Assembly: GCA_012841405.1 (NCBI GenBank)
Contig: DUUT01000196.1
Coordinates: 1-37,886 of the forward strand
Length of the DNA stretch: 37,886 nucleotides
DNA from: Chloroflexota bacterium
Lineage (GTDB): Bacteria; Chloroflexota; Anaerolineae; UBA1429
Direction: 5' to 3'
Shown here: positions 7,286 through 36,411 of the stretch, piece by piece
How positions within the stretch are numbered: the stretch's first letter is position 1
Layout: each line of letters begins with the position of its first letter
Position numbers and translations under genes: made by a program
Notes under the pieces: model-generated
What the model saw: only the letters and a program-made list of their open reading frames with translations
Database searches by the model: none
What the model was told of the DNA's origin: nothing

Positions 7286-7957
7286 ATGGACCGTCCGGTA
7301 CGCGAAGAGGAAGGGACGCCGGTGCGAGTGTCGGCCGGCCCGGTAACGGTGGAGGGCAACCTGGCATTGCCCGCCGCCGCTCGGGGGATCGTGCTGTTCG
7401 CGCACGGCAGCGGGAGCAGCCGGTTCAGTCCGCGCAACCGCTATGTGGCGCGCATGCTCCAGGAGGGCGGCCTCGGCACGCTGCTCATCGACCTGCTCAC
7501 CGAGGAAGAGGAGCGCGTCGATATGCGCACGCGCGAGGTGCGCTTTGACATCCCCCTGTTGGCAGAGCGGTTGGTGGGCGCCATCGACTGGTTGCAGGAG
7601 TACGAGGCGACACGAGCGCTGCGCATCGGCCTGTTCGGCTCGAGCACGGGCGCGGCAGCGGCGCTCATGGCTGCGCCGCGGCGGCCTGATGCCATTGGGG
7701 CCATCGTGTCGCGGGGGGGCCGGCCCGATCTCGCCGGTGCCGCGCTGCAGGAGGTTCGGGCGCCGACGCTGCTCATCGTCGGCGGGCGCGATACGGTGGT
7801 CATCACGTTGAACACGCAGGCGTTGGAGCAGCTCACTGCCGAGAAACGGCTCGAGATCGTGCCGGGCGCCACCCACCTCTTTGAGGAGCCGGGCGCCCTG
7901 GAACAGGTCGCCGCGCTGGCGCGCGACTGGTTCCAGCAGCACCTGACACCATCCTGA
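7286..7957 (+). CDS. Alpha/beta hydrolase (dienelactone hydrolase-like)
   Basis: A 223-residue single-domain alpha/beta hydrolase. The nucleophile elbow is GSSTG with Ser120; the acid is probably Asp169 in VGGRDT and the base His197 in GATHLF, giving a full triad. The oxyanion-hole region is LFAHGSGSS near 38-45. The gene starts 11 bp after the phosphoribosyltransferase, with AAAGGGGAGAGGT upstream of ATG. Fusions and neighbours of these two families are common in bacteria, suggesting a linked but undefined role. The stop codon (7955-7957) lies inside the first unit of a 17-bp palindromic tandem repeat, so the last codons are formed by the repeat. Confidence 0.87.
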   Translation: MDRPVREEEGTPVRVSAGPVTVEGNLALPAAARGIVLFAHGSGSSRFSPRNRYVARMLQEGGLGTLLIDLLTEEEERVDMRTREVRFDIPLLAERLVGAIDWLQEYEATRALRIGLFGSSTGAAAALMAAPRRPDAIGAIVSRGGRPDLAGAALQEVRAPTLLIVGGRDTVVITLNTQALEQLTAEKRLEIVPGATHLFEEPGALEQVAALARDWFQQHLTPS

Positions 7958-8010
7958 GGATGGCACCATCCTCAGGATGGCACCATCCCAAGGATGGCAC
8001 CATCCTAAGG
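7947..8010. repeat. 17-bp palindromic tandem repeat over a gene end
   Basis: Three full units and one partial one: CACCATCCTGAGGATGG at 7947-7963, then near-identical units at 7964-7980 and 7981-7997, and a partial unit at 7998-8010. Each unit holds the near-perfect palindrome CCATCCT-N-AGGATGG, so the RNA could form serial hairpins, or adjacent units could pair. The TGA stop of the hydrolase is in unit 1. The differences between units (CTGAGG, CTCAGG, CCAAGG, CTAAGG) fall in and beside the palindrome centre. There is no U-tract, so this is not a standard intrinsic terminator. Confidence 0.9.
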
Positions 8011-18505: not shown

Positions 18506-19282
18506 ATGCCCGGAATCGCGTACTTTGACTGTAACGTCAGCCTTGGCTACCCGGCCGCCGGCGTCTATCGGCCGTGTGGGACGGCGGATGAGCTCCTCGC
18601 CGAGATGGATTGGGTTGGCGTCGACGCGGCTCTGGTGCACCACACGCTCATGCGCGAGCAATCGCCGGTGGTGGGCAACCAGGCGTTGGCGGAGGCGATC
18701 GCCGGCTTCGAGCGCCTCGTCGGCAGCTGGGCGATTCTGCCGCCGCAGACGGGTGAGCTCGGCGATGCGGCCACGTTCCTGGCCTCCATGACCGCTGCCA
18801 ACGTGCGGGCCCTGTGGGCGTTTCCCGAGGAGCACCGTTACCTTCTCGATCGCCCAACCTTTGGCACTTTTCTCGGCGAGGTGAGCGCGCGGCGCATTCC
18901 CCTGTTCTTGCCACGCCATGCGGGCGGCCCACGGCCGCCCGATACCTGGACCCTCGTGGATCGCTTGCTGCACGAGTACCCCGAGCTGACGCTGGTGGTG
19001 GCGGCGCACGGCCCCTGGGGAGAGGACCGCTACTTCCGCCCCTTTCTCGAGCAGTATCCTCGGTTCCACCTCGACATCTCGCGCTACGAGTTGGACTGCG
19101 GACTGCGGGAGTTGGTGGGCCGGTATGGGCCGGAGCGCCTGCTCTACGGCAGCAACTTTCCGCACAACGCCATGGGAGGACCACGGCTGATGGTGGCGCG
19201 CGCCGAGATTGACGACGATGCCCGACGTGCCATCGCCGGGGGCAACCTCAGGCGCCTGCTGGCGGAGGTGGATCTGCCATGA
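18506..19282 (+). CDS. Amidohydrolase-fold protein with missing metal ligands
   Basis: A 258-residue TIM-barrel protein of the amidohydrolase-2 type. Fold landmarks are present (YFDCNVSLG, LTLVVAAHGPWGED, RFHLDISR, RLLYGSNFPH). The first-strand HxH motif is replaced by Asn10-x-Ser12, and the usual Asp of YGSDFP is Asn217. It therefore looks unable to hold the normal metal. It starts at ATG after AAAGGAGTGGC. Its TGA overlaps the next gene's ATG (ATGA), so the two are translationally coupled. A regulatory or structural partner role is my inference. Confidence 0.8.
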   Translation: MPGIAYFDCNVSLGYPAAGVYRPCGTADELLAEMDWVGVDAALVHHTLMREQSPVVGNQALAEAIAGFERLVGSWAILPPQTGELGDAATFLASMTAANVRALWAFPEEHRYLLDRPTFGTFLGEVSARRIPLFLPRHAGGPRPPDTWTLVDRLLHEYPELTLVVAAHGPWGEDRYFRPFLEQYPRFHLDISRYELDCGLRELVGRYGPERLLYGSNFPHNAMGGPRLMVARAEIDDDARRAIAGGNLRRLLAEVDLP

Positions 19283-20085
19283 TCGATTCGGCCATCGCAC
19301 GCGAGTACCTCGAGACGGGCAGGTGCGCCGATTGTGGCGTGGTGGACATGCACGCGCACTATGGGCCGTTTGGGGGCATCGCCATGGTGAACGACAGCCC
19401 CGAGCAGATGCTCGCCACCATGGAGCGCTGCGGTGTGGAGCTGATGGTGTCCAGCGGCCATACTGCGCTCGCCGATATGGTGCGCGGCAACGCCGAGATC
19501 ACGGCCATTACCGAGCGCCATGCGGGGCGCTGGTACGCCTACCTGACCTACAATCCGAACTACCCCGTGTTGGGGCGCCGGGAACTCGAGGAGTATGGGA
19601 ACCATCCCACCTATGTGGGGCTCAAGCTCCATCCGACGTTTCATCGATATCCCCTCACGGGGGACGCCTACCGGCCGGCCTTCGCGTTTGCCGCCGCGCG
19701 GCGGCTCATCGTGCTCACGCATACGTGGGGCGGATCGGCGTATGACCGTCCCGAGCTGCTGGCCGAGGTGGCGCGCCGCTATCCAGAGGTGACGTTCCTG
19801 GCGGGACATTCGGGGCACGGGCAGTTTGAGGAGTGCATGGCGGTCGCGCGCGAGTGCCCCAACGTCTACCTCGAGCTGACAGCCGCCTACGCGGTGCGAG
19901 GGCTCATCGAGAGCATGGTCGAGACGGTGGGCGCGCACAAGATCGTCTTTGGGTGCGACCTTCCCTGGTTCGATCCCCACTATGCCATTGGCTGTGTGGT
20001 GATGGCGCACATTAGTGAGGAGGCCCGGCGCGCCGTGCTGCGTGAGAACGCCTTGCGGCTGCTGGAGGGGCGTCGTCGGGTGTAG
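19279..20085 (+). CDS. Amidohydrolase-fold metal-dependent hydrolase
   Basis: A 268-residue amidohydrolase-2-type TIM-barrel enzyme. It keeps the expected metal and catalytic motifs: HAH at 25-27 in VDMHAHYGP, LKLHPTFH, VLTHTWGG, FLAGHSGHGQFEE and FGCDLPWFD. It overlaps the preceding degenerate paralog by 4 bp, and the two share only limited similarity beyond the fold. The substrate is not identifiable; related proteins include decarboxylases and lactonases. The stop at 20085 is followed by a 900-bp stretch without a forward gene until 20979. Confidence 0.85.
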   Translation: MIDSAIAREYLETGRCADCGVVDMHAHYGPFGGIAMVNDSPEQMLATMERCGVELMVSSGHTALADMVRGNAEITAITERHAGRWYAYLTYNPNYPVLGRRELEEYGNHPTYVGLKLHPTFHRYPLTGDAYRPAFAFAAARRLIVLTHTWGGSAYDRPELLAEVARRYPEVTFLAGHSGHGQFEECMAVARECPNVYLELTAAYAVRGLIESMVETVGAHKIVFGCDLPWFDPHYAIGCVVMAHISEEARRAVLRENALRLLEGRRRV

Positions 20086-20111
20086 ATCCACCCGCGGCAA
20101 GCGCTCGACAG

Positions 20112-20141
20112 AAAACAGCCCGAGGGAACTCGGCGGGGCTG
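20112..20141 (-). terminator. Reverse-strand intrinsic terminator
   Basis: On the reverse strand CAGCC and CGAG pair with CTCG and GGCTG around a TTCC loop, with a 4-nt bulge, and TTTT follows immediately. It points leftward, toward the end of the amidohydrolase gene, and would end a transcript coming from the promoter at 20689-20717. Confidence 0.6.
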
Positions 20142-20683
20142 AAAGAGGTCTTTGCGGGGCCCAGGGTCTCGGTGCATCCTCTCCGGCGGTAGAGGTCGTT
20201 GGCTGTGATGATGAGCACGCGGCTCAGCCGGACCCTACCGTCGACGGCATTCGTTGCTGTTGACCGGAGATGGATGTCAAGCGGCGTTGTCGGGTTACCG
20301 GGCAACAACAAGGCGCACGGTCTCTCGCGATGTGCTCGATGAAGCAGCTATGTGCGACGACGTGGCACGATGCTATGCGGCGATGAGCGTGTGATGTGCT
20401 GGCATGAGAGTGTGATGAGCGACAGTGGAGCTACGACGGCTGATGATGTGCTTGGCCGCGCGCCTCACGCGATCGCTGTTCAGCTCTCGACGCGACGGTT
20501 CTGGCGAACAGTGTGTTGCGGTGCCACGATGGCCAGAACTGGGATGAGGGTGCGATGAAGGGTATGCTTTGGACGGTGGGGCACGGAGGTGCAACCTCCG
20601 ACCCTGGTCCCCCCACACACGAGTTGGGCTCTCACGTCCGACGACGTTGAGGGTGGGATGTTTGGACGGGCGAGCCACAACTT
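20112..20683 (-). ncRNA. Candidate structured non-coding RNA, about 570 nt
   Basis: A near-perfect promoter (20689-20717) and an intrinsic terminator (20112-20141) bracket this stretch on the reverse strand, and no recognisable protein is encoded. The RNA would form many local stems. Examples are GGAGGT/ACCTCC around 20586-20600 nested within GTGGGG/CCCCAC, GTTCTGGC/GCCAGAAC near 20500-20540, CTGTTC/GAACAG, GTTGT/ACAAC and TTGAC/GTCAA. I looked for RNase P, tmRNA and SRP signature sequences and found none. A short motif, CGTCCAAA, occurs twice. It could instead be an untranslated remnant of a lost gene. Confidence 0.5.
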
Positions 20684-20688
20684 GCGCC

Positions 20689-20717
20689 ACTATACCATAG
20701 CGGCAGGAGGGTGTCAA
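20689..20717 (-). promoter_or_regulatory. Consensus reverse-strand promoter for the candidate ncRNA
   Basis: Reverse-strand TTGACA (20712-20717), 17-bp spacer, TATAGT (20689-20694), with TG one base before the -10 (extended -10). This is the closest match to the sigma-70 consensus seen in the window. Transcription would begin near 20681-20683 and run leftward. Confidence 0.8.
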
Positions 20718-20809
20718 TCGTTTTCGTGACATAACGGGACGATTTTGGCAAATTGGTACTATGGGTTGCGGTGTGGGGAGCAGATACCCCTAGCCATGGG
20801 GGTGCTACC

Positions 20810-20838
20810 TTGTGCCCCTGGCGCGCAGCGGCTACAAT
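20810..20838 (+). promoter_or_regulatory. Promoter for the unknown gene at 20979
   Basis: TTGTGC (20810-20815), 17-bp spacer, TACAAT (20833-20838). Transcription would begin near 20845, leaving a leader of about 130 nt rich in G. The stretch 20718-20978 holds nothing else I can name. Confidence 0.6.
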
Positions 20839-20978
20839 GGCGCCGCACCGTGAGGGGGCAGGGGTACGAGGGCCGGGGAACTGGCGTCGGAGAGAGGGGC
20901 AGTGGTGGGGGGCCTGCCACGTGGCCACCGCGAGGCTGTGGTAGTGTGAACGTCGTCCGCTCATCGAGGAGAGAAAGC

Positions 20979-21350
20979 ATGCTGAACACTGACGGTTCAT
21001 TCAGCTTCACTGAGGAGGTGCTGGCGCAGGTGGACGCCTTTCTCGCCGAGTACGAGCAAGTGCAGGGGCCCCTTACCGACGCCCTGGAGCGGGGGTTGGT
21101 CGTGTCCTACGCGCTGGGGGCCATGCTCTGCGATCTCGAACTGGTGTGGGAGGCGCTCTGCTCGGCGCCGATCTTTGGCCAGCAGAATCCCCGGGCACTC
21201 TGGGAAGAGTGTGTGCGGCGGAACGCCGACCGGAGCGCGGAGCGAGACGAGATCGCGGCCGAGCTCGTGCGGCATGGGTGGGTGCACGTTGAGGCAGAGG
21301 AGGAGGAGACGACAGCCGACGTCGGCGGCTCGGCTCCAGCCGAAGCCTAG
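20979..21350 (+). CDS. Unknown acidic protein, 123 residues
   Basis: I do not recognise this protein. It is soluble, acidic and mostly helical, begins MLNTDGSFSFTEEVL, and has two Cys residues in a hydrophobic central helix (ALGAMLCDLELVWEALCSAP). The tail is Glu/Ala-rich. ATG is preceded by GAGGAGAGAAAGC, and a promoter lies at 20810-20838. Its TAG stop shares the palindrome CTAG (21347-21350) with the stop of the convergent MBL gene, so the two coding regions overlap by 4 bp. Confidence 0.75.
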   Translation: MLNTDGSFSFTEEVLAQVDAFLAEYEQVQGPLTDALERGLVVSYALGAMLCDLELVWEALCSAPIFGQQNPRALWEECVRRNADRSAERDEIAAELVRHGWVHVEAEEEETTADVGGSAPAEA

Positions 21351-22177
21351 CTCTGGCGGAAGGTGCGGTACAGTGCCACGAGATTATCCAGGTGTAGGCG
21401 GCTTACCAGCCCATCCAGCGGGATGCGCGACTTGCCGCACTCCTCGATATCGATCTCCTTGAGCTTTTTGGGTGGTGCCCCCTGGCGGACCAGGTCTTGG
21501 ACGCGTTCCACAATCGCATGCAAGTAGGCGATGCTCGAATCGATCGATTCGTTGACCTCTCCCTTGAGGAGCACATCCCCATGGCCCTGCACGACAAAGT
21601 TAGGCTGCAGTGCCTTGATGCGCTCAAAGGTCTCGATGAGCTGTTCATAGTCGCCGCGGACGATGTGGGGGATCGGCATTACGGTGTCGCCGGCGATGAG
21701 CACCTTCTCGTCAGCGACCATCACGCTGATGCCATCCGGCGAGATGCCGGGTGTATGGAACAGGTTCAGGCTGCGATGCGCCAGGTGGAGGCTCATCTCC
21801 TCATCAAACGTGATGTCAGGCAGGCGCAGCGATACCTCGGCTAGGGCGGGGGTCTCGCGTCGAGCGCGCTGCAGGCTCGCCTGGCCGGCGGTTGCCAAGA
21901 TCCGTCGACACCGATCGTGGGCGATGACCTCGGCCTCGGGGAACAGGTAGGCGCCATAGACGTGATCGGCATGGTGGTGGGTGTACACCACATAGCGCAC
22001 GCTGTTGGGGCCCAACTGGTCTTCGATAAAGGAGACGATCTCGCGGGACTCGATCGGTAGTGGGAGTGTGTCGACCACGATGGCCCCGGCGGGAGTTGTG
22101 AGCACTGTCGCGGTCACCTGTGCATAGATGCCGCTAATAAAGACGTGAATATCCTCAGCGACCCTGTCGATCCTCAC
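21347..22177 (-). CDS. Metallo-beta-lactamase-fold hydrolase
   Basis: A 276-residue MBL-fold protein with the metal motif THHHADH, a later ligand His in LFHTPGISPDG, Asp in LIAGDTVMP, and His in VVQGHGDVL, so the binuclear metal site appears complete. The closest recognisable group is the broad beta-lactamase-like hydrolases acting on diverse substrates; no lactamase role is implied. The start is probably GTG at 22177, with AAAGGG upstream on the reverse strand; the frame remains open further upstream, but without a ribosome site. It is divergent from the RpiR regulator gene. Confidence 0.85.
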   Translation of the reverse strand: MRIDRVAEDIHVFISGIYAQVTATVLTTPAGAIVVDTLPLPIESREIVSFIEDQLGPNSVRYVVYTHHHADHVYGAYLFPEAEVIAHDRCRRILATAGQASLQRARRETPALAEVSLRLPDITFDEEMSLHLAHRSLNLFHTPGISPDGISVMVADEKVLIAGDTVMPIPHIVRGDYEQLIETFERIKALQPNFVVQGHGDVLLKGEVNESIDSSIAYLHAIVERVQDLVRQGAPPKKLKEIDIEECGKSRIPLDGLVSRLHLDNLVALYRTFRQS

Positions 22178-22266
22178 TACCTGGCACCCTTTCTCATGCA
22201 ATCTCTGGTGACGATAGCATAGGGGTGCCGCCGCTGTCAAGGCAGGACAGTGTCGCCCCGGCATTC

Positions 22267-22295
22267 TTGACAATTACTGTTGGCATTGCTACAAT
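22267..22295 (+). promoter_or_regulatory. Strong promoter for the RpiR-type regulator
   Basis: TTGACA (22267-22272), 17-bp spacer, TACAAT (22290-22295). Transcription would start near 22302, giving a leader of about 100 nt before the ATG at 22405. Confidence 0.8.
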
Positions 22296-23235: not shown

Positions 23236-23260
23236 GGTCGCATGAATGTGCCCAAGGCAT

Positions 23261-23288
23261 TTGCCTTTCGGCGAAAGTATGGTAGACT
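23261..23288 (+). promoter_or_regulatory. Promoter of the 6S RNA gene
   Basis: TTGCCT (23261-23266), 16-bp spacer, TAGACT (23283-23288). Transcription would start near 23294, at the beginning of the closing stem of the RNA. Confidence 0.65.
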
Positions 23289-23293
23289 GGGAG

Positions 23294-23482
23294 GTGTAAT
23301 CCCTGCGGTGTGCGTGATCTCTCGATTGTTTTGAGCCAACACATTGGTTGAGGGAGCCGATTTCCGGATGAGTGGCTCTGCAGGGCTTCTGCGGAGGTCC
23401 TCTGGGTCACTGGTAGGCGCCCACCTGCGTAAGCAGGTTCAAGACCACGAGGACACGGCATGGCAGGGGTTACCCTTGAGAC
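23294..23482 (+). ncRNA. ssrS: 6S RNA
   Basis: A ~190-nt RNA that binds the sigma-70 RNA polymerase holoenzyme by mimicking an open promoter. The 5' end GTAATCCCTGC pairs with the 3' segment GCAGGGGTTAC (11 pairs with one wobble), forming the closing stem. The typical GCGGTGTGCGTG follows the 5' stem strand. A hairpin ACCTGC-GTAA-GCAGGT lies on the 3' side of the central region, and GGGAGCCGAT and an apical GAGCC/GGCTC stem are present. The overall long, interrupted hairpin fits 6S. It has a promoter, an intrinsic terminator, and a position beside aspS; I recall a 6S gene next to aspS in Bacillus too. Confidence 0.8.
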
Positions 23483-36305: not shown

Positions 36306-36342
36306 CACACCGCCGTCGACAGTTACTGTCGACGGCGGTGTG
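36306..36342. other. Perfect 18-bp hairpin with one-base centre
   Basis: CACACCGCCGTCGACAGT (36306-36323) is followed by one T and then its exact reverse complement (36325-36342). It lies between the third M42 gene and the promoter of the SMP-30 gene. There is no T-tract on the forward strand. It may be a terminator-like end for the M42 operon, a cruciform or protein site, or a small mobile palindrome. A smaller hairpin precedes it at about 36277-36294. Confidence 0.85.
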
Positions 36343-36411
36343 GCGTCTGGCCAGCACTAATATCGCCCATAACGCCTCGGGACAGGGCCGGCTACCGGTC
36401 GCTGCGAATCC

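Follow-up and report, generated by a model that had tools for sequence, protein, structure and literature searches.

The widest gap between genes in the analysed DNA, 893 nt when the start of the right-hand gene is set by homology at 20979, raises the question of whether it harbours an independent gene for a large noncoding RNA on its reverse strand, as the first-pass annotation proposed. The window, i.e., the whole stretch of DNA that was analysed (37,886 nt), is an entire contig (G000:C133) of a MAG from the Anaerolineae (Chloroflexota), whose genome comprises 4.0 Mb in 238 contigs and is 96% complete and 7.5% contaminated. The locus is read here, with a probability of about one half, as a real, lineage-specific noncoding transcription unit, and a noncoding transcript as such is rather likely. 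If transcribed, it would be an orphan noncoding RNA gene in a deep-branching, mostly uncultured group, and in a family in which no Hfq was found. To our knowledge, regulatory RNAs are little known in this group. If it is not transcribed, the locus serves as a caution that calling a structured RNA takes more than a strong promoter in a stretch without genes. The setting of the candidate is as follows.

19279..20085, forward strand: Amidohydro_2 gene, the convergent neighbour.
20112..20683, reverse strand: predicted noncoding transcript of ~570 nt, its putative start placed by the promoter and its putative end by the terminator.
20689..20717, reverse strand: sigma-70-type promoter TTGACA-N17-TATAGT with an extended -10 (TGG before TATAGT), recognised by consensus and genome-wide enrichment.
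20718..20760, reverse strand: A/T-richer stretch upstream of the -35, UP-element-like as judged by eye only.
20979..21350, forward strand: conserved hypothetical gene (123 aa), the divergent neighbour.

The reverse-strand promoter with a 17-nt spacer and an extended -10, on which the original proposal was built, is present at 20717-20689(-) and matches 11 of 12 consensus positions. It is the sole promoter-like site in 19000-22000, and shuffles yield 0.5 (sd 0.7) such sites at a looser 9-of-12 threshold. When up to one mismatch is allowed, the genome has 210 sites with the pattern TTGACA-N17-TATAVT (107 + 103), whereas a reversed-pattern control gives 0 + 1 sites. This pattern is the genuine housekeeping consensus of the genome, and because 210 genomic sites stand against one for the control, the promoter of the candidate is very likely real. 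Exact copies numbered 37 among the matches listed, and the downstream context of 30 of them was inspected. Apart from the candidate and one locus (L080), which was left out of this comparison because of too little flanking sequence, all are followed by a same-strand coding-like frame that starts within ~440 nt; such promoters also precede two tRNA genes (L076) and a cobalamin riboswitch (L062). Downstream of the candidate copy, no same-strand coding frame occurs for 1.5 kb, and the first frame met is that of the amidohydrolase, on the other strand. The candidate therefore has a promoter of its own.

It also has no coding frame of its own. The first-pass annotation had seen no convincing protein here, which agrees with the flat GC content over codon positions and with the negative codon log-odds. 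Across 20086-20720, third-position GC is 0.59-0.70 in every frame on both strands, compared with 0.76-0.87 in the neighbouring genes. Codon log-odds per codon range from -0.18 to -0.50 in the open frames of the region and from 0.18 to 0.54 (median 0.43) in whole genes of the window; the 123-aa neighbour scores 0.31. A Pfam search of the three longest frames of the region gave no match, and a codon-like pattern, which had been named as evidence against an RNA gene, was not seen in its frames. Because the promoter is very strong and there is no sign of coding, the stretch probably gives rise to a noncoding RNA.

With regard to its 3′ end, a hairpin followed by UUUU does exist ~570 nt downstream of the promoter, as had been claimed, but such sites are not above chance, since a scan of 3 kb found one versus 1.2 in shuffles. 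The hairpin pairs 20141-20136 with 20121-20116 and 20131-20129 with 20124-20122, with a predicted stability of -11.2 kcal/mol, and 13 of 500 shuffles are equally stable. Elsewhere in the window, a long near-perfect intergenic palindrome at 36306-36343, CACACCGCCGTCGACAG-TTA-CTGTCGACGGCGGTGTG, is likely a bidirectional terminator. The many potential stems described earlier are likewise found, but their signal is modest: the full-length fold has a z of -2.12 (matched by 2 of 100 shuffles), and local z values are no better than those of the other strand. In a local scan with 120-nt steps, the forward strand of 20161-20280 reaches a z of -5.1 versus -2.75 for the reverse strand, and the middle of the candidate RNA folds worse than shuffles. 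The predicted elements are listed below from the 5′ end; the hairpin and domain windows were picked after the fold had been viewed, which makes the single z values given for them flattering.

20622..20682, reverse strand: 5′ hairpin AGUUG-GGCUC...GAGCC-CAACU (10 pairs) plus CGUCC/GGACG, from the predicted start site (z -3.9; matched by 1 of 500 shuffles).
20600..20620, reverse strand: 5′ arm of a predicted long-range pairing with 20148-20168.
20584..20600, reverse strand: short hairpin CGGAGGU-UGC-ACCUCCG, with a Shine-Dalgarno-like GGAGG within the stem (z -4.5).
20498..20539, reverse strand: hairpin GUUCUGGC...GCCAGAAC, pair probability 0.98.
20402..20493, reverse strand: long irregular hairpin, pair probabilities mostly >0.9 (z only -1.0).
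20175..20276, reverse strand: predicted 3′ structured domain, CAUCC-UCUCCGG...CCGGAGA-GGAUG with an inner arm (folding window 20286-20164: z -3.35; matched by 0 of 500 shuffles).
20148..20168, reverse strand: predicted 3′ arm of the long-range pairing.
20112..20141, reverse strand: intrinsic-terminator-like hairpin, then UUUU.

The long-range pairing is a 21-nt imperfect inverted repeat (17 of 21 positions Watson-Crick), which would enclose the inner 430 nt and abut the 5′ hairpin; its best core score was reached by 9 of 400 shuffles. That the 5′ hairpin marks the start site was also considered and rejected: in a looser test anchored there, 59 of 300 shuffles did equally well, and many mRNA leaders were its equal. 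As modelled, the 5′ hairpin and the 3′ domain fold better than nearly all shuffles, which would support a noncoding unit. Short repeats of CATCCTNAGGATGGCAC, arranged head to tail and as palindromes, lie between two genes at 7940-8005(+) and, on both strands, rank with the strongest folding signals that the window shows.

A second property of the candidate RNA is a repeated short motif. CAUC is its most over-represented 4-mer, occurring 16 times compared with 5.95 expected from dinucleotides (0 of 300 shuffles) in a test made after the motif had been noticed, and the candidate is the densest 572-nt stretch for CAUC in the window (window mean 4.3). In the predicted fold, CAUC sites are on average 0.73 unpaired, versus 0.41 across the RNA. 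An extended form is clustered in the middle of the transcript.

20210..20451, reverse strand: six GCWCAUC repeats (at 20445, 20414, 20393, 20382, 20329 and 20210), mostly predicted unpaired.

These six copies of GCWCAUC share one strand within 572 nt, whereas stretches clear of the locus have at most two per strand. Elsewhere in the window, GCTCATC is scattered and probably encodes Leu-Ile; what is special is therefore the cluster, not the word. Genome-wide, a triple GCWCAUC pattern gave 17 matches, two of them overlapping at the candidate locus, and many of the others are probably coding Leu-Ile as well. Part of the cluster is explained by a 21-nt imperfect duplication (20371-20412); no tandem repeats were found.

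The over-representation of CAUC, mostly at unpaired sites, suggests, speculatively, an RNA for multi-site binding or titration, which is the most testable idea because of the repeated unpaired motif. In such a mechanism, the sigma-70-type promoter at 20717-20689(-) would drive a ~570-nt RNA ending at the hairpin 20141-20116. The paired ends (the 5′ hairpin, the long-range stem around the inner 430 nt, the 3′ domain, and the terminator) would stabilise the RNA, and the looser middle would expose many CAUC sites, most of them unpaired and six in the extended form GCWCAUC. In its most likely mode of action, the RNA would work in trans, using its many motif copies to capture and titrate either a protein or short sites on mRNAs. 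Titration is a guess that we consider unlikely as it stands, and if the RNA is made, the motif would offer a direct handle on its binding partner. Pairing of the Hfq type is not the first idea here, because no Hfq (PF17209) was found in this genome or in 14 genomes of the family, whereas control genomes expected to have Hfq do. More doubtful again is the bolder proposal of a new class of large, lineage-restricted RNA of ~570 nt, with a closing long-range stem and ~12 unpaired CAUC, serving in this family without a detected Hfq as a multi-site sponge for an RNA-binding protein or for mRNA sites.

Comparative evidence bears on whether the predicted transcript would have a function at all. The search of related genomes by sequence and synteny, which the first-pass annotation had put forward as a check, found no counterpart from either neighbour. 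No DNA homologues were found in 14 same-family genomes (none of the same genus), in the order, in 396 genomes of the class and 400 of the phylum, or in phages, plasmids and E. coli; these searches gave only chance pieces of 23-37 nt, the best of which in the own genome (on C212) lies inside a protein gene. Two exact patterns searched in viral contigs gave no match. When 298 class genomes were searched with a covariance model built from the 3′ domain as a single sequence, the only hit was the domain itself. The relatives located via the adjoining amidohydrolase gene are, where named, Anaerolineae or Chloroflexi MAGs; in the two that were read (L033, L035), different genes follow the amidohydrolase (polA or a cupin gene), and a word search of all eight loci gave no match. 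On the other side, the 123-aa protein (20979-21350(+)) is without a Pfam match, and its gene forms with a metallo-beta-lactamase-fold gene (21347-22273(-)) a convergent pair, which is kept in 11 family genomes at 31-51% identity. Other genes lie upstream of this conserved pair in the relatives. Among the genomes compared, the junction at which the locus lies occurs in this genome alone.

A serious rival, which we hold to be somewhat unlikely, is spurious transcription, in which intergenic DNA at a rearrangement junction carries a good promoter by chance and the RNA does nothing. It would account for a site unique to this genome, with other genes adjoining both neighbours in relatives, for an RNA without relatives in the collections searched, and for a modest folding signal. 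The lack of relatives in the collections searched, and hence of any signal of conservation or covariation, weighs against a noncoding unit, as do the modest fold, its local equal or better on the other strand, the anchored test of the 5′ fold, the chance-level terminator, the post hoc and partly duplicated motif, and the failure to find Hfq as a chaperone partner. On the other hand, the promoter is among the best of the genome, and the clustered motif, like the long-range stem, exceeds the usual outcome of shuffles, which speaks against this rival.

Alternatively, the locus might serve to control its convergent neighbours. The promoter opposes two amidohydrolase genes (19279-20085 and 18506-19282) and could limit them by polymerase collision, read-through antisense RNA or pairing with the 3′ UTR. 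The predicted 3′ end of the RNA and the stop codon of the convergent gene are 27 nt apart, no forward-strand terminator-like site exists in 19000-22000, so that forward transcripts may enter the region, and the forward copy of 20161-20280 is the one that folds well (z -5.1). However, a terminator-like hairpin stands between the RNA and the gene, and such convergence control appears improbable.

It is very improbable that the transcript is an mRNA for a small protein, such as the 66-aa frame at 20680-20480(-), which has no stop after the predicted start site, or an internal 34-aa GTG frame that has a Shine-Dalgarno-like GGAGG 10 nt ahead of the GTG. These frames score -0.25 and -0.19 per codon against the gene median of 0.43, GC3 is at most 0.70, and the GGAGG is locked in a predicted stem. 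Searches of 199 class genomes gave weak scattered matches only (best E 0.001, in one genome, ~40% over 40 aa), most of which sit within longer unrelated frames; small proteins in the region were rejected on the codon score. Least probable of all is a relic of a decayed protein gene, for instance of the gene that, in closer genera, adjoins the hypothetical gene on its upstream side. In three relatives (L081, L085 and L088), this position is taken by members of a single gene family that encode 218-244 aa. When their products were compared with the region by tblastn, the matches were only short, not collinear and spread over both strands (best E ~0.02 when 1 kb was searched); no recognisable relic emerged, and this reading was rejected. 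In another relative (L082, on G007:C69), a stop-broken frame occupies the ~0-650 nt ahead of the gene for the 123-aa protein, where closer genera have the intact 218-244 aa gene; BLAST between this broken frame and the intact gene gave no match.

The noncoding transcription unit favoured here was also compared with known RNA families. The failure of the first-pass annotation to match it to RNase P, tmRNA, SRP or 6S RNA was borne out, and a match to a known family, recognised at the outset as a result that would speak against a new RNA, was absent from Rfam at E ≤ 5. At the gathering threshold and at E ≤ 5, Rfam gave only 6S elsewhere in the window and chance-level eukaryotic or archaeal families. 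The covariance model of RNase P RNA (RF00010) had no match in the region, and the RNase P of the genome lies at G000:C89:19536-19952 (282 bits). The candidate had no ARAGORN or Rfam match to tmRNA and no Rfam match to bacterial SRP RNA, nor to OLE, ROOL or GOLLD at E ≤ 5. The 6S gene noticed earlier is confirmed at 23297-23473(+) (RF00013, 66.3 bits), which lies outside the candidate and is the sole 6S match of the window. Upstream of it, at 23257-23289(+), an apparent extended -10 of the form TATGG-TAGACT resembles, by eye, the TATGG-TATAGT of the candidate. Membership among the large structured bacterial RNAs, as first proposed, is reduced to a suggestion: the folding is modest (z -2.1) and locally not strand-specific, the terminator is at chance level, and no homologue was found, so that "large structured RNA" is a weaker reading than that of a noncoding unit.

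CsrB-type RNAs titrate a protein through many copies of a GGA motif in loops. The candidate resembles them as a putative promoter-driven noncoding RNA with many copies of one short motif, mostly predicted unpaired, which is an analogy of working principle only, and differs in that the motif is CAUC or GCWCAUC; GGA occurs five times in its 572 nt, compared with ~7 expected from composition. The 6S RNA gene shares the window with the candidate at a distance of 2.6 kb, but lies on the other strand, and the candidate has no match to it. A passage of PMC9723947 puts OLE at ~600 nt. Like OLE, ROOL and GOLLD, which are large ornate bacterial RNAs (PMC12286853), the candidate is noncoding, of similar length, and probably its own transcription unit; unlike them, it showed no conservation in the genomes searched, its predicted fold is less ornate, the window has no tRNA, and no phage match was seen. 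In occupying a long noncoding intergenic region without a known RNA, the candidate also resembles the orphan RNAs of the GC-IGR type (PMC11109978).
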